Source: Spirogloea muscicola
Taxonomy: Eukaryota > Streptophyta > Zygnematophyceae > Spirogloeales > Spirogloeaceae
Assembly: GCA_009602725.1 (NCBI GenBank)
Contig: WELB01000090.1
Location: forward strand, 162,239-218,772
DNA length: 56,534 nucleotides
Direction of reading: 5' to 3'
Both the position numbers and the translations under genes were made by a program. Under the pieces are notes generated by a model. It was not told where the DNA came from, did no database searches, and saw nothing but the letters and a program-made list of their open reading frames with translations. Each line of letters starts with the position of its first letter. Position 1 is the stretch's first letter. Below, piece after piece: positions 3,292 to 46,000 of the stretch.

Positions 3292-4271
3292 TACTGCACA
3301 TCCATAAACCAATCCGAAGCTATTTCTAGCAGGGAGTACAACCTGCCAATGGGCCCAAGTGTATTAGCCAATTGTCAATGTCACTTGATCCGGGGGATGT
3401 TGGCACTCATGTACGAGTGGACTATCTACTCTATTAGTCAAAAGCACATAGTCATTGTCTGGCAAAGGCTGCAGATACCAAAGAATGATACCTATTCCTT
3501 TGATGCTGGGCAGCAGCATGGCCACACTGCATGCGGGCATACGTGTGCAGCAATAGTGCAGCAATCAATGACACCCTGGAATTGCCACTGTCTGTCTGGT
3601 CTTTTACCATACTGCTCTGAAGAGCATTTATGTCCCAGCATGCCAAATGACTCTACATCCAATGCTTAGAAGATGCTTTGGAGGCACCACTCGGTGCAAG
3701 ACCAATTTCCGATCTCCTCCGGCTGCTCCTGTCCAGCGCAGACTGGCTCCTTGTCCAAGGCTGGGGTGGAAGATCTGGCCGCAACTGTCGCCCAGTTCTC
3801 TTGCCTGAGTCTCGCTCATCTTGCTCATTCCTCTTTGGAAATGGGAGGTCGTCTGCATTGCAATTTACGACTTAAGCCAACTGCTTACTGGACACTCAGG
3901 CACCGGTATCCTACATTGACAGAGCATGCAGGGCAGCAATACATAGGTACCAGAAGATCCTGCACAGATCAGCTGCGCCATAATCAGCATACCAGTTGAG
4001 TGGCGAAGTGGTGAGGCCAGGGACTGGCGACGGAAAGAATTTGGCTGTGGGATCGCAGACGGGCCTGCCTCTGGCAGATTGGTAATACCCACAGTGGTGT
4101 TCCTCCATTGGGACCTTCCTTGTGAGGGCTTTGGGAGCTGCGACATCTTGCGACTGCTTGCTCTGCACACAGACAATGCACAAGCAGGCAGTGAACACAG
4201 CACTGAAGACCTCATTACAATTCCATGGCAGCACACAGCACCTGCAATCTGCTAATGTAAAGTCGAAGACC
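3292..4271. other. Convergent intergenic region
   Basis: This interval separates two gene 3' ends. I see no conserved coding exon, RNA gene or copy of the dispersed repeats here. The open frames are short and lack splice context. Confidence 0.5.
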
Positions 4272-10200: not shown

Positions 10201-12380
10201 TCTCCATGATACGTCTCCATTTCCCTTCAACGTGGAACCACCGGGGATGGAAGCACGTGACGGCAGCAACTGCTTACGAAGAGTGGATGCAAGCTTATTT
10301 ATAATTGATGCCGCAGATATTTCTGAAACATACGCCATATAAACACGAGCGTCAGAGAGAAGGAGGTGGTCAGGGCTTCTGCACGCCTTGCTACTTGCTT
10401 GCTTGCATGCATAAAGTATCAACAACACATACCTCCGGTGTGCATGCTTGGAGTCTTCTGTTCCTCCATAGACACTCTATCTCGCAAGCACTTCACTTGT
10501 TCTTCAGATGCAAGGCGCTGGCTTGAAGATAGAGTCAGGTCTGAGCTCTGTGCTAGGCTTCGCAAACGAACACCTCTTGACATGCCATCAGCAGATTGTC
10601 CTGCCCTGCTCTTAGCTGGTAGAGCTACTTTAGCAAGACCGCGAGGTGTCAAAAGAACATCAGGCAGGCAGTCCATAGAGCCATGGTCTCCTGGTTTATC
10701 ATCTGAAACGTCGACACTCAATTGCAAAGTGTTGCTTGCCGCGTGCTCTTCAATCTGCAACTGACTTGTTTTTTCAGCCGATGTTCCGCCTGATTGAGAA
10801 GCTTTGGATGGTGATGGAGGGCTGTCCATGCTCAGCACTCGTGGAACATCTGCCTCAAAAATTTGCATATTGTGACTTGATGCTTTTTGTTGTAGCTGTT
10901 GCTTGCCTGCACCAGTATCTGTTGAAGAGGAACCAGCTACAAAGCTCCTCTCAAGCTTCCGCTTGAGACTATGGAACCTTGGTTCCTAAACTCGGGCACC
11001 ACAGGCTCATGTTCTGGCGTACCTCCTGTAGTCTCGCCTTGTATAGGTGGAGCGTCGTTGTCTGGTAATTCACTCGGCCCTTTCAAAGCCCTGCTACATG
11101 AGAATTTTGGAGAGTAAACCCCAGTGCCTGTCTGGCGTTGGATGCTATTTCCAGCTGGCGTCCAGCGAGGTACCTCCTTTGGTGACTTAAGTGAGGGCAC
11201 ATGAGTCCAGATCCCTGTGTGACCAGCTCTCTGCCAGGTGTAGTACGACTTAAGAGCAAGAACAGAGTCAACCACGCGTGCAGTTGCGCCTTGAGAGGTG
11301 TGCTCCTGACACGGTAATATATCACAATTGTCATCAACACACCGCTGATGCACTCTCTACACATTCCGGTGCTTCTGTAAGCATGTCAAGCAAACAAAGT
11401 ACAGGCTACCAAACGGCAGCCTACCTTTTCAATATCCGCGATCTGAAAGGCTGGAGCCCCAATGCTGCGCAGCACTTTGATGACTTGCTCAAGATTCTCC
11501 AGAGTGTGATATATGTTTCTCCGAGGAGAGAAAGGACCAGAAGGGCAAACCGACTGATCCAGCTGCCCTTCCGCTACCTGCACATGAACCACCCTAGTGA
11601 GCATGCTGTGCAGCTTAGCGCATGCCGAGTTGCAATGGCTTGCCCCTTGCTCGTTGTACAGGTCTGCTTTGGCCGATATCTGTGCATGTAGAGGACATTG
11701 GTATATCCTTGACAGGGGAGCAGTGGGGCACACCTTGCACTTGGAACCTGGCAGAGCAACATTCACAAGTCTGCAAAGTACAGTCCCATTCCTAAGATAT
11801 CTGCGAAACTCTTCTTCGGACGGCTTGCTTGGAGTGATGTCTCCCAGCAGGTTTGCTATGAACGCCGCGGCCTCATGCCTGCGTGCCTCTGTGATCGAAC
11901 AGCTACGTTTACTGGTTACTTGAAAGAGATCTCTCTGTTGGATGGATTAGGATTGTCTTTTGATCTCGAAACTGATGCAATTCGGTCAGACATCTTTGGC
12001 CTGCAAATGGCTTGAGTGCCGCTAATATGATTGTACAGAGATGCCAATAGAGGAGGCATGATACGAACACAAACTCCAACAGTGCAGGGACTCTTACATC
12101 ACCAACCTATCAGCTCTGCCCGTCTCATTTGGAGGAGGATGTCGTTGACGACTCTGACGCCGCTCTGGCTTACTCGGTGTGGGGAAGGACCGTTGCCGTC
12201 CTCGTCAGGGAAGCTGCTGGATGACTGGGAGCTCGTACCTCCAGCTGTCATACCATAGGATCTCCTCCCAGCTACTCTCTGCAATAACTGTTGCTTCCGC
12301 AGGGGAACTCCGAAAATGGGTGCTGCCTGCAGCAATCCTTCAGCCGGAGCTTCACCAGCGTCGCTTTGGCTACCCGACAT
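4272..12380 (-). CDS. Kinesin-14 with N-terminal calponin-homology domain (KCH type)
   Basis: Minus-end-directed type microtubule motor with an actin-binding-type CH domain. Reading on the minus strand: N-terminal exon (~12380-12107, from MSGSQSDAG; another in-frame Met lies at 12428). The CH domain follows in exons at ~11930-11763 ([33 protein letters not shown]), ~11530-11400 ([22 protein letters not shown]) and ~11290-10960 ([16 protein letters not shown]). After a Ser-rich linker and coiled-coil-rich exons (10.9-8.2 kb) comes the motor: [12 protein letters not shown] (~7715), P-loop [13 protein letters not shown] (~7283-7245), switch I SSRSH (~6600), switch II DLAGSER (~6385-6365) and [10 protein letters not shown] (~6230). 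Switch I joins in phase to the next exon only if the acceptor is AACAG before CATTGTG near 6460. A hydrophilic tail ends GNPRS at 4272. The motor is internal, with CH before and tail after, as in plant KCH proteins. Possible role: linking actin and microtubules (inferred from family). Exon limits are approximate. Confidence 0.88.
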
Positions 12381-15185: not shown

Positions 15186-15318
15186 GAAACAAATTAAGGC
15201 CAAAATGGCCAAGTACAATGGCAAGCACATATACTGACGTACATCACCCAGAACAGATTGACCCGCTCAGTAAGCACGGGTCAATACATAAAGGTCACTA
15301 ATTGATGCCTGAAGACTA
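15186..15318 (-). repeat. Solo 3' end of retroelement-like repeat
   Basis: On the minus strand this carries the ~125-base tail shared with 15374-15490, 15786-15918, 18295-18425 and 21480-21600. The tail has a short stem (GACCCG...CGGGTC around CTCAGTAAGCA) and a terminal block reading ATGTGCTTGCC-x-TTGTAC-TTGGCC. No coding part precedes it, as expected of a 5'-truncated insertion. Confidence 0.65.
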
Positions 15319-15785: not shown

Positions 15786-15918
15786 CGTACGAGAACGAAG
15801 GCCAAATGTCCAAGTACAGAGGCAAGCACATCTAATGACCTTTACATAACCTATAGCAGATTGACTCGCTCAGTAACCACGGGTCAACACATAAAGGTCG
15901 CTAATCGATGCCTGAGGG
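15786..15918 (-). repeat. Solo 3' end of retroelement-like repeat
   Basis: Another copy of the ~125-base tail, without the coding part. It contains GACTCG-CTCAGTAACCA-CGGGTC and GTACAGAGGCAAGCACAT in plus-strand reading. Confidence 0.65.
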
Positions 15919-16117: not shown

Positions 16118-19100
16118 ATGGCGCCGGCGCCTGACCAGGCCGCCCTGGCCGCGCTCAAGGCCCTGCAGGTCGACCGCCGGGCCGCCCGGCCGCGCCGCCT
16201 GCAGGCCGATCGCGGCCGAGCCGGATGCTGGCCTGCACCGCTCCCTGACGCGTTGCAGTCTCTGCGGGCTGCAGGATTCGATAGACAAGCTCGCGGCGCA
16301 GCAGGCGGCCGAGAAGCTGAAGATCGGGCGGAACTTCCTCGAGCAGTGCAAGCCCCTCTACGAGGTCCGGTCACTCGCCCCTGCCTCGGCAATCGACAGT
16401 GGGCAGGCCATTTGCTCTGATTGCATGATTGTGCACAATTCTTCACCTTTGATTCTTACGTATCAGTCCAAATTGATTGTGGACAGCGGAGGCGAAAGAT
16501 CATCAATGGCGAGGTCGAGCCCGCAGATGAGGAGGTGGGAGAGGTGCCCGAAATGGGGGACGCTCTACTTCCAACGCAGAAACAGCACAAGGGCATTCCA
16601 TACTTTTGGCTTAGTGTACTGAAGAATCAGGTAGATGCTGCCTACTCGACTCTTACGAGAATCTGGCAATCTAGAGATATCAGCTCAAAGTATTCCATCT
16701 CCACTAGGGTAAAGTGATTTAGAAGTGGAGATACTTAAGTACTTCGATTGACTTGTAGCAGACAAGTGCATCAGCTTTGCAAAATTACTGCGTAAATCCA
16801 ATGTAATCTAGGAGAGTATCAGGCTGGTGCTCATGTATTGTGCCTGTGTTGTCAGGACACTATCTCCGAGTACGTGAAGAGGCGAGATGAAGCTGCCCTC
16901 GTTTACCTTCAGGACATACAGCTCATTGTGCCGAGAGAAGCTCCTGGGTAATGTGCGCTCACATGCCTGACTTCTTGAATTCACAGACGGGTCTTGCTTC
17001 GTCTTAGGCGCCTGAAAGCATAAGGGCAAGCATACCATGAAATATTGGCTACGTTCGTTCTCTTTTACATTGCACCAATAGACAAGCACAGTACACATGT
17101 CTACTGCAAATAGCTTGCAGTAAGCTGTTTGTTGCTGGAGAGCACACTATCTTTCTAAGATTGTGAAATGCATGGATGCTCATTGCAGGTATCATGTAGA
17201 GTTTATTTTTCGACAGAATCCATATTTCCACGATAAAGTGCTCATTAAAGAAGTTCATTTCGTGGCTGCTGGACAGCCTTTGCAAGAAGCCATTGTGCAA
17301 GGATCCATACCAATCAGGTGGAAAAATCAGGAGAATAATCTCACAGTACGTCAGGTCGTCAAACAAGCGAAGAAGGGGAAGGTCTGCCACCATTGACCTA
17401 AGCTCATTAAGATAAGCAGTAGAAAGAAAATTGAGGCAGCTTGGACGAGATCTACCCACACGTCTTGTGAGAGCAGCTGTAGACATGTGTGGGATCTGTT
17501 GACAATGGTTTACAATGTGTTGCTTATTCAGGCAGGCAAGGGAAAACGGGGGGGTGACGCGCCGCTCACCACGAAATTGAAACCATGTCAATCCTTCTTC
17601 AACTTCTTCTCAGAAGAAGACCCTTTTTCGAGAAAGGAAAAGAGAAAAGGTCAAGCTGATGCAGAGATTGATGATGTGGATGATGAAGGGCCAATTCTAG
17701 ATGATCTGGAGGGACTAGAACTAGAAGATGCTGGACCTCCACGCCTATCTGAAAGCCATCAAGAGATCCTCGTGACTTTGTGGCAAGAGGTGTGATATCT
17801 GCAGTAGAGTCAGCTTTTTTGGTATTACATCCTGGTAGAAAGGTGTTGGAGCCAAAAAAAGTGGGTACTTATTTCAGCCTCAGTCTTCGTCCTTATGCAA
17901 CTGGCCAGCTTTCTTGTGTATCTACGAGTGCATGCTGCTCATTTAGGCAGTATCTACTCTTTCTGCCACTTTTCTGATATGTTGACGCTTTACTTACTGA
18001 TTTCTCGTTGTGCTGCTCGATGACAAGCACCCTAGGTGGTACCCAGTGCAGTGGACCTGTTCACAGCCGACGAGTTTCTCGCTCAGGAAGGAAAACTAGG
18101 GAGTACTTCTGATGATTATGAGCAAGTTGGGGCTGCTGGTGATCAGCTTGGGGCTCTGCCGCCAACCATTGCACGTCGTGTCCAGTAAGCCATACCCCAG
18201 TGCTGTACATGGCTGACTCCAGCTGCTGGATCAGGAGTTGCCTTCCAGAAAGCTGGGCGAGCTCTAGTAGGTGGCAGAAGGGCTCCGTTCCTGGCATCTA
18301 GTATTCATGCATCGAGTAGTGACCTTTATGTTTTGACCCGTGGTTATTGAGCGGGTCAATCTGCTGTAGGTTATGTAGATTTTTAGATGTGCTTGCCTTT
18401 GTACCTGGCCATTTGGCCTACATTTCTTTCTAATACACGATCTCTTCCAGAGGAAAAATTTGCTTGCCCATTGCCAGTATGTGCCAAAATGTCCAAGTGT
18501 TGGAGGGCAAGGATACACCTTCTGGTGCACGATGGATTAGTGGTCTTGCACATCTTGCATGTTGTTGGCCGCTACTCATGATTCTTTTGTCTCTCAGGGC
18601 ACTGCGAACAATGCAATTGGAGCTGAGGAACTTGAAAGACGAGCAAGCAATGGAAGTCGATATCCTACAAAAGAAATTCGAGTCGTTGTGCGTGGATATT
18701 TTCCAGCAACGGAATACAGTTGTCTTGGGCAAGACAGAGTGAGTGCAGACTTCATCCTTGCAGTCCAAACCGAATCGGTCACATTAAAGATTGATACTTA
18801 TCTGTTGCTTGTGACCTGAAGCAGTGTCAATCTGATGTGGCAGGGGACAAATGGCTGTTCCTCGGTTCTGGCTATTGGCTCTCAAGGCCTGCCCCTCCAC
18901 TGTGGAGCTTATCCGCCGCCGAGATGAACCTGTGCTTGCCAGCCTGATGGACATCTCTGTCAGGTTGCAGGTCATTTTTCGTTTGCCAATCGCGTTCTCA
19001 TGGCCACTTCTCTCTGATTGGAATTGAAGGAGCTTCCATGCTATCTCCCTGCTCTTTGCACTTAAGGTCCTACTCTTTTGGTAAGTTACTTGTTCCTGGT

Positions 19101-20165
19101 TTTCATATTATTCCTTGGATGCTGGCAGACGGCAATCAGGAGCAAGCTTCTCCATTGACTTTCACTTCACTAAGAATGAATACTTCACAAACGATGTGTT
19201 AAGTAAAGCATTCCACATGGGCGGGGAGGGTGAGGGCTTGCTGAGCACAACAAGCACCTCCATACAGTGGCTGCCCGGTAAAAATATCACAGTCAAGGAT
19301 TCTCAGGCAGCCCATCCTAGAGCTTGTGCCAGGTTCGATTCTTGACCATGCTTTCTGTATCTGGGACTCAGTGGTCACAGTTACGCTCTTTGGAGGAGCT
19401 CTTTCTGTATTTAGACATGTTGTCTTAATTACAAGTGCCACATGTCAGCCTGTTGGTAGGAGGACAAAAGTAGTCATGACATTAGCCTGAGGTGGAAGAA
19501 CCTTCTATGGTGGCATTGTGGAGCTTCTTGACTGATTTGTCTTATACATGCTCTTTGCAGTTTCTTCCATCTTTTCAACGAAAGAGGCAGTCAGCTTCTG
19601 TTTGCAGGGGATGAGCGTGTCTCACTATCAGCAGTTGTGATCAAGGATCAGATGGAGGCGCTAGCAGTGGCCTTGAGGGACAGCATTGTCTTGCAGACAT
19701 TCACTCTATACAAGGAGGCTGCACAATGGGACCTTGGAGGAGGTTATGACAGCCACTCTGAGGACGAAGATGTGGAGGATGATGAGGTGGGTTGTGTTCC
19801 TTCTTGGTGAAGACTGCCACAGTGATCAGATCCAATGAAATTTTCTACACAATTTGCTTTTTTGCTTACATGTATCAGAAGTCCTTGCATATCAGGTACA
19901 TATTTGCACTATTGATGCTTGAAGCAGGTTATCTGTCTGTAACCTCTCAGGATAATCTGTGCAGGATGAAGAGGATGATCCATCAGTTGACAACATCAGT
20001 GGTCGGAAGAGACCAATTGGCAAGAGCAAGAAAAAGCGGAAAGAAGACGGTAGTGCAGCGGTTTGTTGTGGCATGTCTCAGAGCACAGGCCTTATATTGA
20101 TTGCCATTCTCGTTTTAGCGCCTCAGGTGTTCCTCCTCTGGGACATGTTCGCCAATCAAGGTTGA
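16118..20165 (+). CDS. Protein with two tandem nucleosome assembly protein (NAP) domains
   Basis: NAP-family histone chaperones bind H2A-H2B and act in nucleosome assembly. Exons placed by splice consensus and phase: 16118-16168, 16275-16364, 16487-16630, 16856-16947, 17189-17345, 17532-17789, 18036-18184, 18598-18738, 18844-18963, 19129-19332, 19561-19786, 19965-20165 (610 aa). First domain: KPLYE/RRRKIINGE, GIPYFWLSVLKNQ, FIFRQNPYFHDKVL, IPIRWKNQENNLT, SFFNFFSEEDPF. Second domain: LPPTIARRVQALRTMQLEL, AVPRFWLLALKACPSTVELI, IDFHFTKNEYFTNDVLSKAF, IQWLPGKNITVK, SFFHLFNERG. An acidic stretch (SEDEDVEDDE/DEEDD) and a basic NLS-like GRKRPIGKSKKKRK follow. No in-frame ATG opens the exon at 18036, and exon 6 joins it in phase 0, which favours one fused protein. 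If exon 6 is not spliced, TGA at 17793-17795 ends a single-domain protein. The last ~20 residues are hydrophobic and could be 3' UTR read in frame if there is another intron. Confidence 0.85.
18295..18425 (+). repeat. Retroelement-like 3' tail inside a NAP-gene intron
   Basis: A sense-oriented copy of the same tail (GACCCGTGGTTATTGAGCGG, TAGATGTGCTTGCCTTTGTA, ending CCATTTGGCC), wholly within the intron at 18185-18597. It is a solo 3' fragment, consistent with 5'-truncated insertion. Confidence 0.7.
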
Positions 20166-30889: not shown

Positions 30890-31346
30890 CAACGGCTAGG
30901 AGACGGCTAGGAGACGGCAGCCGAGCCGGCGGCAAGAAGGAAAGAAGAAGGAAAGAACCGGCCCCCCGGACGCCGCGACGAAGGGGCCCGCCCCCGTCCC
31001 ATCCAAGAGAGCCGCTCCGATTGGGGCGCCGGCGACGTTACCCCGGCCTTCTCGCCGCCTCCGCGCCGGCGGCGCGGGAGTGCTCGCCCGCCCGTCCCCC
31101 AGATTCACCCAATTCACGTGATTGGGTGAACCTGGCTGGATTCCACGGCCGCTCTTTTACCATCGGCAGCCGCATCCTTTTTCCCTTTTCTTTTCACTCG
31201 ACTCTGCCTGAACAATGTATTGGCTTGAATTGGCCTCCCTTTCAATTCATGCGCCCCGCGCGCCTTCTCTCTTTTCCCTTTCTTCTTTCCCCTTTCTGAT
31301 CCACCCCCCTTCCCCCGCTGATCCAAGTCCCCGCCGGCGCCGCCAA

Positions 31347-31379
<33 letters not shown>

Positions 31380-31620
31380 TGCCGTCTTTTCTCCGCGGTC
31401 AGGATTGCCCGCGCTCTCTCTGCCGGCGCCGAGGCCGGTCTCGCGGTCGCCGGAGCGCCTACGGACCAGCGGCCCTCGCGGCCCCTGCTGCAGACCAGGC
31501 GTGGCCCTGCTAAGCTGCGACGCGAGGGCTGTGGCTCGCCCGCTCTCCGCCTGCGTCGTGGTGGTGGCCGTCGACGTCTGCGGCGGGCTCGGCGTTATAG
31601 CGCTCTTGGAGACGTGATCT
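30890..31620. other. GC-rich island with GCC repeats upstream of the membrane-protein gene
   Basis: A strongly GC-rich stretch, with a CCG/GCC run at about 31340-31385, between the repeat cluster and the start codon at 31674. Open frames here are Arg/Pro/Ala composition artefacts. Likely promoter or 5' UTR. Confidence 0.45.
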
Positions 31621-31673
31621 AGCTGCACGAGTCGTGGAGCAGCGGCCGTGCAGCTGGCCATTTGCTGACAGTG

Positions 31674-34600
31674 ATGCGCCGGCAGGCGTCCGCGGTCTCG
31701 CTCGTCATGGCGCGGCCGCGCAATGCAGCTCCTTCGGCTGCCTTGAGCTTCATCCTGGCCGCGGCTGTTCTACTACCTTGCGCCCTTACTGGCGTCTCCG
31801 CCAGCACTGGCGTCTCCGCACTGAGACAGCCCCTTGACGCCGGCCTACTCTCTGAACAGCAACTTCGAGGTTTGTAGACGAGCGAATGCATGTTAGCTGC
31901 GCATGCTCACGATAGCCCATTACGCTGGGCGGGTCAGAGGCGCTGTAAGGCCGACTTTGGACGAGGTTCCACTTTTCCAACTTCAAATGCCAGCAGCAGC
32001 GTAGATGCTGTGTGGCAATGCTCGTAGCTGCAGGCTCATGGTCAGCTGGACGCGGTAGTCGATAGTCAAAATCAAGTTACAGAGACAATGTGCAGTCAAG
32101 GGAGGTCTGCAAGCATGCCAATGCACCCTGCCCCAGTGAGGTCACAACAACACCAGCGACCTGCCACCCTCTTGTGGCAGTATGGGCCCCACTACGAAGT
32201 GGCTTCAGTGAACTTCCTGCAAATATTCGCAAAGGCTTGGCGAGGCTGTTCGAGCATGCAGCCGAGGACAGAGGAGAGGCCACATTGCTAATGCAGAGTC
32301 TCCTTATTGTGCAGTTGATGTCCATGCCAGACGCCACTTGCTACAGACACCCGCGCTGCCTGCGGGCCCCCCTCCTCCTCTGGTTATCCTCGCTGCACAC
32401 CAAACAAGGAGGACAGATCCTCTTGGGAGCTTCGAGACGTACAATGGAGGGTGGGATGTAACCAACAAGCACTACTGGGGTGTAAGTCCTCACGGACCTG
32501 CACTTATTTAGATGGTAGATTGTGCCTGTGATATTGGCTCCAGCTGTATCCGAGCAACGGCTTCAAGTGTCTCCCGATTCTGATCTGCACAACATTCATT
32601 AGTGTTACCAAGCCTCCATAGCGTAGACTTCATTGCTTGAATTGCTGTCAGGAGCATCTCTCCTCCCTCCTAAACAGTGCCTGGCACCACACTCATGAGT
32701 TACTGCTGTACCTTGCTGATATAGATTTCTGCATATGTGCTTGCAGTCTGTGGCCTGGACTGGACTTCCCCTATACTGCGTGGCTATTGGTTGGGTGCTA
32801 CTTGGCGTTCTCTTTGTGTGTATACCTCTGTTCATGTGCTGTTTCTGTAGGAGAAGGGAGCCCTCCCTGAAGACCTACAGTGAGAGCCAAGTCTGCGTCT
32901 TCAAATGGCTTGCTGTATTTGGTATCCTCATCGCAGCGTAAGCATGTCCCTCTCTGACCTACCTCCAGCTGCATTGTGGATTTGCAAGTCAAAGGGGCAT
33001 AACGTGAGATATGTAATGCGATTCACAATGAAGGAAAGAGTTTGCTAGCACTGAGCTGCCATGTCAAGGTCGGATAGTCCAGTAGGATTCATTCCCAGAC
33101 CGTGCTGACAGTGTGCAGATTCCATAGCTACTGAGTCATGATGATTCAGTTGTTCTCTTGTCAGACCTATCTGATAGATATCTTTGGAGCTGAAAGGATG
33201 ATGAACAGTCATGAAAGCCTTCTCTTCAATATGGAACTGCAGGGGTGGTCTCGGTTATATGGCATATGGAGATGTCAGGTTCCATGATGCATTGAACAAG
33301 TCAGTGGACGTGATCATCAAGGAGGCCGACTTTGCACTCAATGTCGTACAGAATGCCACCTTCCTGCTGTGGCAGGCTGGCAATGCTGATGTTGCTGGCA
33401 GTGTCCTCTCATGTAAGTATGCATATTCTGCATCTCAGGTCTGTTTAGCTGATGCACAGCTTCACATCTTTGATGGGCCGGTATCAGTACTCTGGCTTTT
33501 CTTTCCTTGGCAACTGAGTGTATGGTATGGTTACTGTGTATAAGATACTCATGACTCGCAGTGGTCCTGTCAGTGTCATGCTCTTCTTCGGATTTTGTAT
33601 AAGAGCATTCATTAATTACACGAAATGGGTCCACCTTTGTGTCTGTCAGCTGCAGAGGCAGACAAGATTGCTACTGTGTCAGCAGAAGTGAACCAGGCTG
33701 CAGTCGACGTGCAGCGTCAAGTGCATCATCGCAAACATCAGATAGATGACCTTCTTGATGCAATGTATGTTTGGTGCATTGTATCAACTCCATGTGGCAT
33801 TGTTATCCTTTGTGCACAAATTTACAAGGACCAATGTTCGCGGACTTGTTGCTTGTATTCATTGCAGACATCAACAGAGCCAGAGTTTCTGTCTTTGTTA
33901 TTATATGTCCACATTCTTCAGGAATGCAGGTAGCACAGCAGACTTCAAGCTGAATTGGCATGTCGCTTTGGCAGATGGTGGACTTTGTTAGCTGTTGGTG
34001 TATTTCTTCTCATTATACTCTTACTTTGCCTAGGTAAGCAACAAACATCCGACTTATTTGATTTGATTTCAAAATGTTCATACTGCTTATGGCTTGTGCA
34101 AAGGGATGTAAATTGATTCTCCAAATTCACAGCAGTAATGGATGAACCCCACAGATTGTGTCCCATCTGACAGCAGCCCAATGATTCTTGTCACAGTATT
34201 TATTTTTCGTCGTCATACGCGATTTGGTTGCATGTAAGCTCCAATGTACCACAAGTGTGTAGCATGGCTTTGCAGCTGCATGATCTTGGCACCAAGTTGA
34301 TGTCCATGCATGCTGGCCTGCTTCACTGACGAGTCTCAACCTTCACTGGTCTTTTCTGACATCCAACCCTCAATGGTCCTGTTTGCTCTTACTACAGCGC
34401 TCTTGTGGTTGTGTACCTCATCATCATCGTCACAATTCTGTTGACGGGGATCTTCTTGATGGCCCAGAAGTGAGTTGCTCCTAGCCGTCACTGGGCTGCT
34501 CAACGGTAGTGCTTCTCGTCAGCTGCTTTGATGGGGTTGCCTAAGCTTGTACTACAAGTATCTGGAGTACGAGAATTATCATGGTTGCCTGCTTGCTTTG

Positions 34601-36558: not shown

Positions 36559-42447
<5,889 letters not shown>

Positions 42448-43074: not shown

Positions 43075-46000
43075 ATGCTGTTTGCCTCCATCTACCAGAT
43101 TGCTGGTGGAGTGCGGTGCTTCTCTTCCGATGGTAAGCTTATACTTGACATGGACGGTAGAACGTCTGCATTCGGCCTAACATGCCACCCTGTCACTCTC
43201 ATTCTTAGTTGGTAGCCAACCTAGATTGGAATTGCTTGACCTACATTGTGGCAGAATTGCCGGCGCATACTATGTTGGAGATGCCGAAGCTCTCGCCCAC
43301 AGAGGACGTGGTAATGACTAGCCTACTAACTAGCCCTCAATATGGCAAGATCATAGTCTACATGCAATTTCTTGGAAGTGCGGATACGTAGATATGTATT
43401 ATTAGCAAGACCAGCTTCAGGATGTATTCCAGTGCTAGTGTCGCAGCGTGACAGCTAGCTGAGCACCCATTCCACTAACATAGGTGCTCTTGCGGATGTC
43501 AGACAGGGGCAAACCTTTTGGAGTGGAAGAAAAAGGAAGGAGAAGCGGTAGGTGTCCTTGCTTCTCATCTTAAGTACTAAGATTACTGGCTTGTCACAAA
43601 GTATGTCTAGGATCTCATAAGCAATGCATCTCGATTGTGCAACTTCAATTGGATACGGTATCCAGCAGATTTGGCAATTCTCCTTGCTGTATTTATACAC
43701 GAGAAAGTACAGGTGGCTGCTGGAGATGTACTGTTTCTTGTTGAGACTGATAAGGCAACTGTGGAGGAGGTCTCCCAGGAGGATGGGTGAGTAGAATATT
43801 CGAGTGATGTTTCCCTGCACCTATTCTTCTCAGCATGTCACGGTTGGCCAAGCTTTCTGGCTAGCATCCTACCTCGCCTGGAGCCTTCCTAGCTTGATGT
43901 CCAAGATATACGCAATGCAGGTTCCTGGCAAAAATCCTTGTTCCTGGTGGAAGCAACGACGTCAAGTTCCAGTCGCCAGTGGGGATCCTGGTAAGCGTTA
44001 GTCCTCTGCATCAGCTGAATTGTTTGCTTCCAAGGTGGTCGGCGCGTGGGGGCCATTGCCCAATTTGCCAGGAGTACGAAACTGTTGTTGGCAGAGATGG
44101 GTCCGAGTTTAAGACCAGACCAACTTATATTGCTTGACGCAGAGAGAGCCGCGGATTTGTTGAAGCTGATCTGCTACCTGCTGTGGTTGCTCACAAGTTC
44201 TTGTATGAACAAGTCCGTTGTAGGTCGAAGAGGAAGGAGACATGGCTGCATTTGGTAACTTTGACTCTGGACAGGATAGGACAGAAGAAAGCACCTCATC
44301 ATCCAAGAAAGAGGACTCAGCTGCAGAGAGCTCCTCATCACCTGAGAAAGAGGACTCAGTCTCTGCTCCTTCTAGTCCTCCTTCTACTAAGAAGGAGGAG
44401 TATAAATTGCCAGAAAAGCTGTGGCCTTCTGCCAGACGCCTTCTAGTTGAAAGTGGTATTGATCCAGCTACTATTACCGCTACTGGACCTCACGGTTTAT
44501 ACACGAAGTGGGACGTCCAAGTTGCCATAGATGGTGGAAGATCCCAAAAGAAATCAGACAGAGGACCAGAAGAAGCACAGGAATCACAAAAGGAGGCTTC
44601 CCCTACCCCCTCCCCCTCTCCATCTAAGTCCGAAAAGGCAGCCAAGTCCGAGAAGCAAGCCCAGAAGCAGGCCCCCTCACAGACAGGCATGGCTTCCCCA
44701 GGGCAGGGCGAGTTTACTGACATTCCAATGTCACAGATACGAAAGGTTGTATTGCAGACCCATCAATCTTGACATGGTGTTGCCCTGCAAGTAGGACCAG
44801 TGTCTCAAGGGCTGTAGCAGTCACACTGAGGTCAATCTGGACAGCTTTGCGGCAATGTAGCTCTTGGAACCTTCATAAATGTCCTCATGATTGTCAGCAG
44901 TCTTGGCAGCCTGACATGCTTTCAACCATCATGACAGGTGATCGCAAAGCGATTGCTTGAGTCAAAGCAAACAACTCCGCATCTCTATATTGGAGCTGGT
45001 AGATGCACTTCCCTTCGTTCTTGAGCTTTGCGACCTGGCCATCACTGGCATTGACAAACATGCCAAGAGGGATGCTTAGCAATGAGGATCGGCATTTAGC
45101 TGCATTGATTGCTTGTGTTGTCTTGCATTGGTCAGCTCTTCTCTTCTTCTGATTTGACATCTAAAATGCCGTTGACAGTATAACACTTTTCATGTTAGAG
45201 ATATTGTTTTTGTGGTCGGCCTTGTGGGCTGTACTTGTGTCAGCCACTACTCTACTCTTGATGAACAGCCTTCCACGCCTTCTGTGCTCTTGGCAGAGGC
45301 AAATCTTGATGGCACATTGAAGTTGCGGAAGGAGCTAAAGGGTACACATTACTCGACACCTCTGTAAAGATTGATATTGGTGAATGAAGTGATTTGACGT
45401 CTTAGCTGTGTTCTTATATTCGTGGCTTTGGCTCCTGCAATCATGCTGTTGCAGAAAAGCATTCCGTCACGATCTCCGTGAATGACTTCGTCATCAAGGC
45501 AGTTGCTATGGCTCTAAAGCAGGTTCCAGAGGCCAATGGTGCGTTTCTTCTTAGTGGATTGCTTCTCTTTTGAGTTGTATCTATTTCTGTCTCTTACTTT
45601 CAGCATTCTCATGATCTTGTGAAGCATGGAATCAACACACTATGTCACAGTAAATTTGCCTGGACTTGAAATACCACTCGCCTTGGTCAATCGCGTCCCT
45701 TAGATGTTCGCTTAGAATGGACTGGCAGCCTGCTTACATGAAGACGTTGCTGTGATCAGTTCACTGGGATACCAAGTTGGAGGAAGTCGTTACGAACAAG
45801 AGCATCGACATTTGTGTCGCAGTTGCAACTGATAAAGTACGTAGGGATGTCAGAGAAGAGATATCATCCTAGTATCACAAGACTCTTTTAAGAAGCTCAC
45901 AGGGGCAGTGCTAAGCAGTGTGCTTGCGAGAAGAATGCTTATTGCCTGGATCTATGCATATATTCTTGGCATTTTCATAGGCATGTCCAAGAATTTTCGG

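Follow-up and report, generated by a model that had tools for sequence, protein, structure and literature searches.

Proteins of the NAP family usually carry one NAP domain and work as pairs. The closest described systems are NAP1 (yeast Nap1, 2z2r/5g2e; human NAP1L1, 7un3; C. elegans NAP1, 6k00) and SET/NRP (human SET, 2e50; Arabidopsis NRP1/2, 5day and 6jqv). In the portion of PMC9128123 considered here, NAP homodimers are described as pairing via the long helix and as having acidic C-terminal tails, and in the complex of yeast Nap1 with H2A-H2B the histones are touched by helices 4-6 of one subunit and by helix 8 of the other. The plant NAP-family sets (Arabidopsis, rice, Chlamydomonas and others) consist of NAP1-type and SET-type groups, and the rice and Arabidopsis proteins are described as possessing 'a NAP domain', no tandem form being mentioned in the sections of that article consulted (PMC4357127). 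No description of a two-, tandem- or double-NAP protein was found in the searches of the open-access literature (for the broader ones, among the titles and abstract openings listed), database annotations and subscription journals lying outside that scope. The gene analysed here is placed at positions 16118-20165 of a stretch of 56,534 nucleotides from Spirogloea muscicola (contig WELB01000090.1, positions 162,239 to 218,772), the whole of which is referred to as the window. Its sequence indicates, with high confidence, one gene with two NAP domains. This architecture is unusual within the well-known NAP family, and the hydrophobic tail of the encoded protein is a second oddity.

The spliced model has 12 exons and 1869 nt and encodes 622 residues, the sole stop being terminal. 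GT-AG borders and consistent phases are obtained for all 12 exons, and the 11 introns of the window copy measure 105-413 bases. Pfam NAP (PF00956) matches the protein in two stretches (298.7 bits in total, cut-off 28.6), at residues 10-287 and from residue 323 on, with ~35 residues between them. By alignment, both halves contain a putative long helix of the dimerisation type in their opening part, followed by the FWL motif, the beta part and the closing helix. Instead of the usual architecture of one NAP domain per polypeptide, two domains lie in one frame and are joined by one exon. The original prediction, made from the letters of this stretch, had proposed two NAP domains on one strand that can be joined in phase into one protein, and the GT-AG exons and the two Pfam stretches bear this out; the single long product stands, and its length, given there as ~610 residues, is corrected to 622. 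The features of the locus are the following:

16118..16168, + strand, exon 1: start ATG and first part of the long helix of NAP domain 1 (MAPAPDQAALAALKALQ)
16275..16364, + strand, exon 2: remainder of the long helix of NAP domain 1
16487..16630, + strand, exon 3: NAP domain 1, IING..KGIPYFWLSVLKNQ
16856..16947, + strand, exon 4: NAP domain 1
17189..17381, + strand, exon 5: beta part of NAP domain 1
17532..17789, + strand, exon 6: NAP domain 1, SFFNFF and first half of the closing helix (HQEILVTLWQE)
17793..17795, + strand, in-frame TGA: within intron 6, just past the exon 6 donor; absent in one of the three copies
18036..18184, + strand, exon 7, the bridge: closing motif of NAP domain 1 (VVPSAVDLFTADEF), linker and opening motif of NAP domain 2 (LGALPPTIARRVQ)
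18250..18451, no strand assigned, insertion of 202 bases in intron 7: window copy only among the three; CTTCCAGA repeats on both sides (by eye)
18598..18738, + strand, exon 8: long helix of NAP domain 2
18844..18963, + strand, exon 9: NAP domain 2, VPRFWLLALK..IRRRDEPVLASLMDISV
19129..19332, + strand, exon 10: beta part of NAP domain 2
19561..19786, + strand, exon 11: SFFHLF, closing helix of NAP domain 2 (alignment only) and start of the acidic tail
19965..20165, + strand, exon 12: acidic stretch, basic stretch (RKRPIGKSKKKRK), hydrophobic C-terminal end (STGLILIAILVLAPQVFLLW) and stop

Exon 7 carries the argument for a single gene. Its first 14 residues correspond to the closing helix of a NAP domain, a place at which the genome's own NAP1 has KIIPHAVKWFTGEALEEY, and its end, LPPTIARRVQ, corresponds to the opening of a NAP domain, the human NAP1L1 counterpart being lprvvkrrvnalknlq. 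Domain 1 alone, taken with the start of exon 7, covers positions 3-265 of the 266 of PF00956 (185.9 bits). When ended at the 17795 stop it covers positions 3-238 (175.8 bits), and hand-made shuffles of the 14 residues give 3-238 and 175.5 bits in six out of six cases. Domain 2 alone covers positions 1-219 of 266 (118.5 bits), with profile position 1 at arginine 323, which is encoded in exon 7. The ratio of non-synonymous to synonymous changes (dN/dS) of this exon is 0.07-0.40 over the three pairs of gene copies presented below. An in-frame TAG stands directly upstream of the exon and no in-frame ATG occurs inside it, in agreement with the earlier statement that no in-frame ATG lies between the preceding stop and the coding part at 18036. 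The exon had also been regarded as the opener of domain 2; domain 2 does start there, but the same exon closes domain 1. This double role, as well as the acidic, basic and hydrophobic parts of the C-terminus, had been overlooked in an account whose two-domain chain is otherwise supported. Because exon 7 (18036-18184) serves both domains in one frame, two separate genes are very unlikely.

The gene occurs in three copies. A Pfam NAP search of the whole genome (153 Mb, 471 contigs; the window is C90:162239-218772) returned 17 exon-level matches, comprising 12 in the double-NAP loci (C90, C155 and C58, four each), three in C63 and C201 and two in C10 and C64. The three double-NAP loci share ~85-89% DNA identity over the gene, and the 12-exon model keeps intact frames in all of them, with 622, 623 and 624 amino acids and no internal stops. 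Between copies, the exons are 85-98% identical and have indels of 0 or 3 bases only; the introns are 75-92% identical, and in 10 of the 11, one pair or more differs by an indel whose length is not divisible by three. A glycine codon split over a splice junction of exon 5 reads GGG, GGT and GGA in the three copies, and the exon 6 donor reads GTGTGA, GTGTGA and GTGAGA. The dN/dS values (Nei-Gojobori) in the three pairs are 0.26, 0.22 and 0.24 for the whole coding part and 0.16, 0.11 and 0.15 for the last 35 codons, with ranges of 0.21-0.29 for domain 1 and 0.27-0.28 for domain 2. Judged by these comparisons, both halves and the C-terminal tail are under purifying selection.

Both groups of the plant NAP-family sets are also present in this genome. 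An ordinary NAP1 gene lies on C63 and C201, and its C201 model, assembled by eye, gives 192.9 bits against human NAP1L1. On C10 and C64 there is a SET/NRP-like gene, for which a partial model from C64 (134 residues) gives 194.1 bits against Arabidopsis NRP2. Both domains of the double-NAP protein match NAP1 by sequence. Domain 1 keeps a short insert before KGIPxFWL and has one intron position exactly as in the C201 NAP1 (by eye), whereas domain 2 is without the insert. Unlike NAP1, the protein has two domains per chain, a hydrophobic C-terminus and KRRDE/RRRDE where NAP1 has acidic residues ahead of the conserved Asp. In the absence of the NAP1 insert and in its short beta loops domain 2 resembles SET/NRP, but in the best tree it falls outside that group. 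The tree, built from 14 rows of NAP sequences, places the two halves weakly and on very long branches (1.19 and 1.44 changes per column); domain 2 joins NAP1 at 73/73, and SET/NRP stands apart from all others at 99/97. The approximately unbiased (AU) tests reject none of the groupings of domain 1 with domain 2 (p-AU 0.207), domain 1 with NAP1 (0.237) and domain 2 with SET/NRP (0.232), and consequently an origin by fusion of two genes and an old duplication are both retained. A recent tandem duplication was discarded, given the length and weak placement of the branches. Among viral contigs, searched with a single-protein query that reaches close relatives only, 461 stretches matched a pattern and none encodes a relative.

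The following mechanism may be proposed. The 12-exon gene would produce a chain of 622 residues in which two diverged tandem NAP domains precede acidic, basic and hydrophobic C-terminal stretches, the basic one resembling a nuclear localisation signal (NLS). The two long helices would pair inside one chain in the way in which those of the two subunits pair in an ordinary NAP homodimer, and this internal NAP pair, fixed and asymmetric, would bind H2A-H2B or H3-H4. The hydrophobic end would serve as a tail anchor, keeping the chaperone at the endoplasmic reticulum or the nuclear envelope. The chances that the helices pair within the chain and yield such a histone-binding pair are put as even, and the covalent dimer envisaged in the original prediction is plausible. 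In a different arrangement, each domain would pair with the like domain of another chain and higher oligomers would arise. The ability of NAP-fold proteins to form tetramers (PMC4027167, PMC5291247) and the strong divergence of the halves (branches of 1.19 and 1.44) speak for this arrangement, but the ~35 residues between the two Pfam matches would allow pairing within the chain, and inter-chain pairing is considered unlikely.

The C-terminus of the protein is composed, after domain 2, of an acidic stretch (DSHSEDEDVEDDEDEEDDPSVDN), RKRPIGKSKKKRK and STGLILIAILVLAPQVFLLWDMFANQG, followed by the stop. The acidic tail is a trait of the NAP family, and the basic residues, which are NLS-like, precede the hydrophobic segment. 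Taken over 19 residues, the hydropathy of the protein is highest at the C-terminus in all three copies (2.32 in the window, 2.56 and 2.56 in the others); in the window copy this maximum spans residues 596-614 of 622, and the next best non-overlapping stretch reaches 1.25-1.52 across copies. Tail-anchored membrane proteins contain one strongly hydrophobic segment situated ~30 residues or fewer from the C-terminus. The window protein and its two copies have this build, with one strong hydrophobic segment near the C-terminus, and a tail-anchor-like membrane tail is the moderately favoured reading of the hydrophobic end. The inner nuclear membrane as the site of anchoring is a guess.

A soluble two-NAP protein, in which the hydrophobic end would be a short intron of 66 bases (GTTTGT..CCTCAG) or a C-terminal segment that is buried, has in its favour that the 66-base GT..AG stretch can be read in phase within exon 12 and that known NAP proteins are generally soluble. 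The low dN/dS of the last 35 codons (0.11-0.16), the absence of indels in exon 12 in the three pairs and the size of the stretch, which falls below that of all 11 introns in the window copy of the gene (105-413 bases), argue against it, and solubility by either route is rated as rather unlikely. The tail anchor may also be combined with the internal pair in a more far-reaching model, in which a genetically fixed NAP heterodimer would be tethered by its C-terminal membrane anchor, perhaps at the inner nuclear envelope, histones would be received or stored there and the subunits would be specialised for different tasks; this model is tentative and rather doubtful.

The best explanation as a whole, namely a single gene with a proposed fixed internal NAP pair and a putative tail anchor, is given a probability of roughly 0.75. 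Since NAP proteins are described as homodimers, it is difficult in ordinary NAP1 to tell apart what each subunit does. With a natural fusion of two diverged NAP domains, each half could be mutated alone, which would test whether the asymmetric histone binding of yeast Nap1, as outlined in the part of PMC9128123 considered, truly divides the labour between the subunits. Anchoring of a NAP protein in a membrane, if true, would represent an unexpected location for a histone chaperone.

Several observations weigh against this explanation. At the level of the gene model, donors of GTC form are required at introns 1 and 2 in all copies and at intron 5 in the window copy. Intron 1 can be read through in copy C58 and is 89-92% identical between copies, like the exons. 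In single exons, the dN/dS of the window against C58 rises to 1.03 in exon 2, 0.84 in exon 10 and 0.70 in exon 8, values that derive from very few synonymous changes. Regarding the domains, the Pfam match of domain 2 stops at position 219 of 266 and its closing helix comes from the MAFFT alignment alone, while the long helix of domain 1 departs mid-way from the usual hydrophobic pattern (by eye). Both halves have KRRDE/RRRDE (exon 4 and exon 9) at a place where the other aligned NAP sequences have at least one acidic residue before Asp (by eye); because these acidic residues are replaced, histone binding or its surface may be altered. A membrane tail on a histone chaperone is in itself unusual. 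Finally, an intron 7 that is retained would lead to an immediate TAA at the donor and to a protein with domain 1 only.

One of these difficulties concerns the N-terminus. The stretch between exons 1 and 2 is GC-rich and measures 106, 112 and 111 bases in the three copies; only in C58 is it open in frame from the ATG through exon 2. Its codon changes in the three pairs number 5-8 non-synonymous and 2-4 synonymous, three gapped codons having been set aside in two of the pairs, and its position (after ALKALQ, phase 0) is that of an intron in the genome's own C201 NAP1 (ALQDLQ/HKHDEL; by eye). The stretch is taken as an intron because the codon changes do not favour synonymous sites and because the own NAP1 has an intron at the same place; a continuous exon 1, open in one copy only, was rejected on these grounds. 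The N-terminus is nevertheless the least certain part of the model, since intron 1 is conserved as strongly as the exons.

The retention of intron 7 would turn the locus into a source of two products, the full-length two-NAP protein and a domain-1-only protein. The frame of exon 7 runs into the TAA at the donor 18184/18185 (open reading frame (ORF) 18036-18188), and the donor sequence is identical in all three copies. Such stops, however, are easily formed by GTAAG donors, and the LPPTIARRVQ end is well explained as the opening of domain 2; a second product of this kind is accordingly rated as a slim chance.

Intron 6 is the place where two genes would have to be separated. The TGA at 17793-17795 is found in the window and in C155; C58 has AGA instead, and the next in-frame stop there is the eighth codon past the donor. 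The GT donor of exon 6 is present in all three copies. The intron is 81-86% identical between copies, with indels of 1, 15 and 16, and evolves like the other introns. The sequence TGTAA, scanned as a possible polyadenylation signal that may not be the host's, occurs in one of the three copies and is uninformative. A separate start with its own ATG had been named as the finding that would overturn a single protein; the scan of intron 6 gave in-phase ATG mini-exons in each copy, one ATG being common to the window and C155 with different donors, but none with the same ATG and donor in all three. A pair of neighbouring single-NAP genes, of which one would end at 17795 and the other would begin in a 5' exon not yet seen, would suit the two domain-sized units on one strand, the TGA of two copies and these mini-exons, but the first protein would be without its closing helix and the second would begin with it, the stop is missing in C58 whereas the GT donor is kept in all copies, no mini-exon is shared by the three within the scanned intron and that intron evolves like the others, so that this alternative, offered in the original prediction, is dismissed as extremely improbable.

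The surroundings of the three loci are also related. ORF 11389-11946, on one flank of the gene, and ORFs 37899-38513 and 44224-44769, on the opposite flank, have matches on each of the contigs C90, C58 and C155, and their relative order is kept; the three loci are therefore related collinear blocks. This number of collinear copies agrees with the genome triplication that has been reported for Spirogloea muscicola in the portions considered of PMC7994812 and PMC11712027. The copies of ORF 11389-11946 may be decaying: the one at C155:118961-119519 has stops and two overlapping frames, and the one at C58:466749-467300 has one TGA. Within the double-NAP gene, the synonymous distance of the window copy from C58 amounts to 0.25 for domain 1 (16118-17789) and 0.10 for domain 2 (18036-20165), as if gene conversion between two of the copies had touched the 3' half of the gene. 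Sequence similar to the intron 7 insertion (18250-18451) is found at ~15206-15309 and ~15807-15916 of the window and in the other two loci.

Some minor observations were made elsewhere in the window and in the genome. At least 2.67 kb of the window (31331-34000) is 100% identical to C145:296449-299119, and a piece of ORF 37899-38513, helicase-like by eye, is also present on C145 at 99% identity; this identity reflects either a recent duplication or assembly redundancy. A sequence of ~80 bases at 31195-31282 of the window is present at no fewer than 37 genome places with 94-100% identity (37 of 3919 candidates scored). An intron of the ordinary NAP1 of C201 (L012 ~4060-4120) contains telomere-like CCCTAAAACC/CCCTAACC units. 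Light-harvesting family matches in the genome amount to 68, in keeping with a photosynthetic alga of the green lineage, perhaps a streptophyte. The comparison of one light-harvesting exon with solved structures gave a 620-residue chain LHCI-2 (9vfj, two stretches) as the best match, followed by many LHCII chains. The latter are presumably from land plants and green algae, moss and spruce being among the best.

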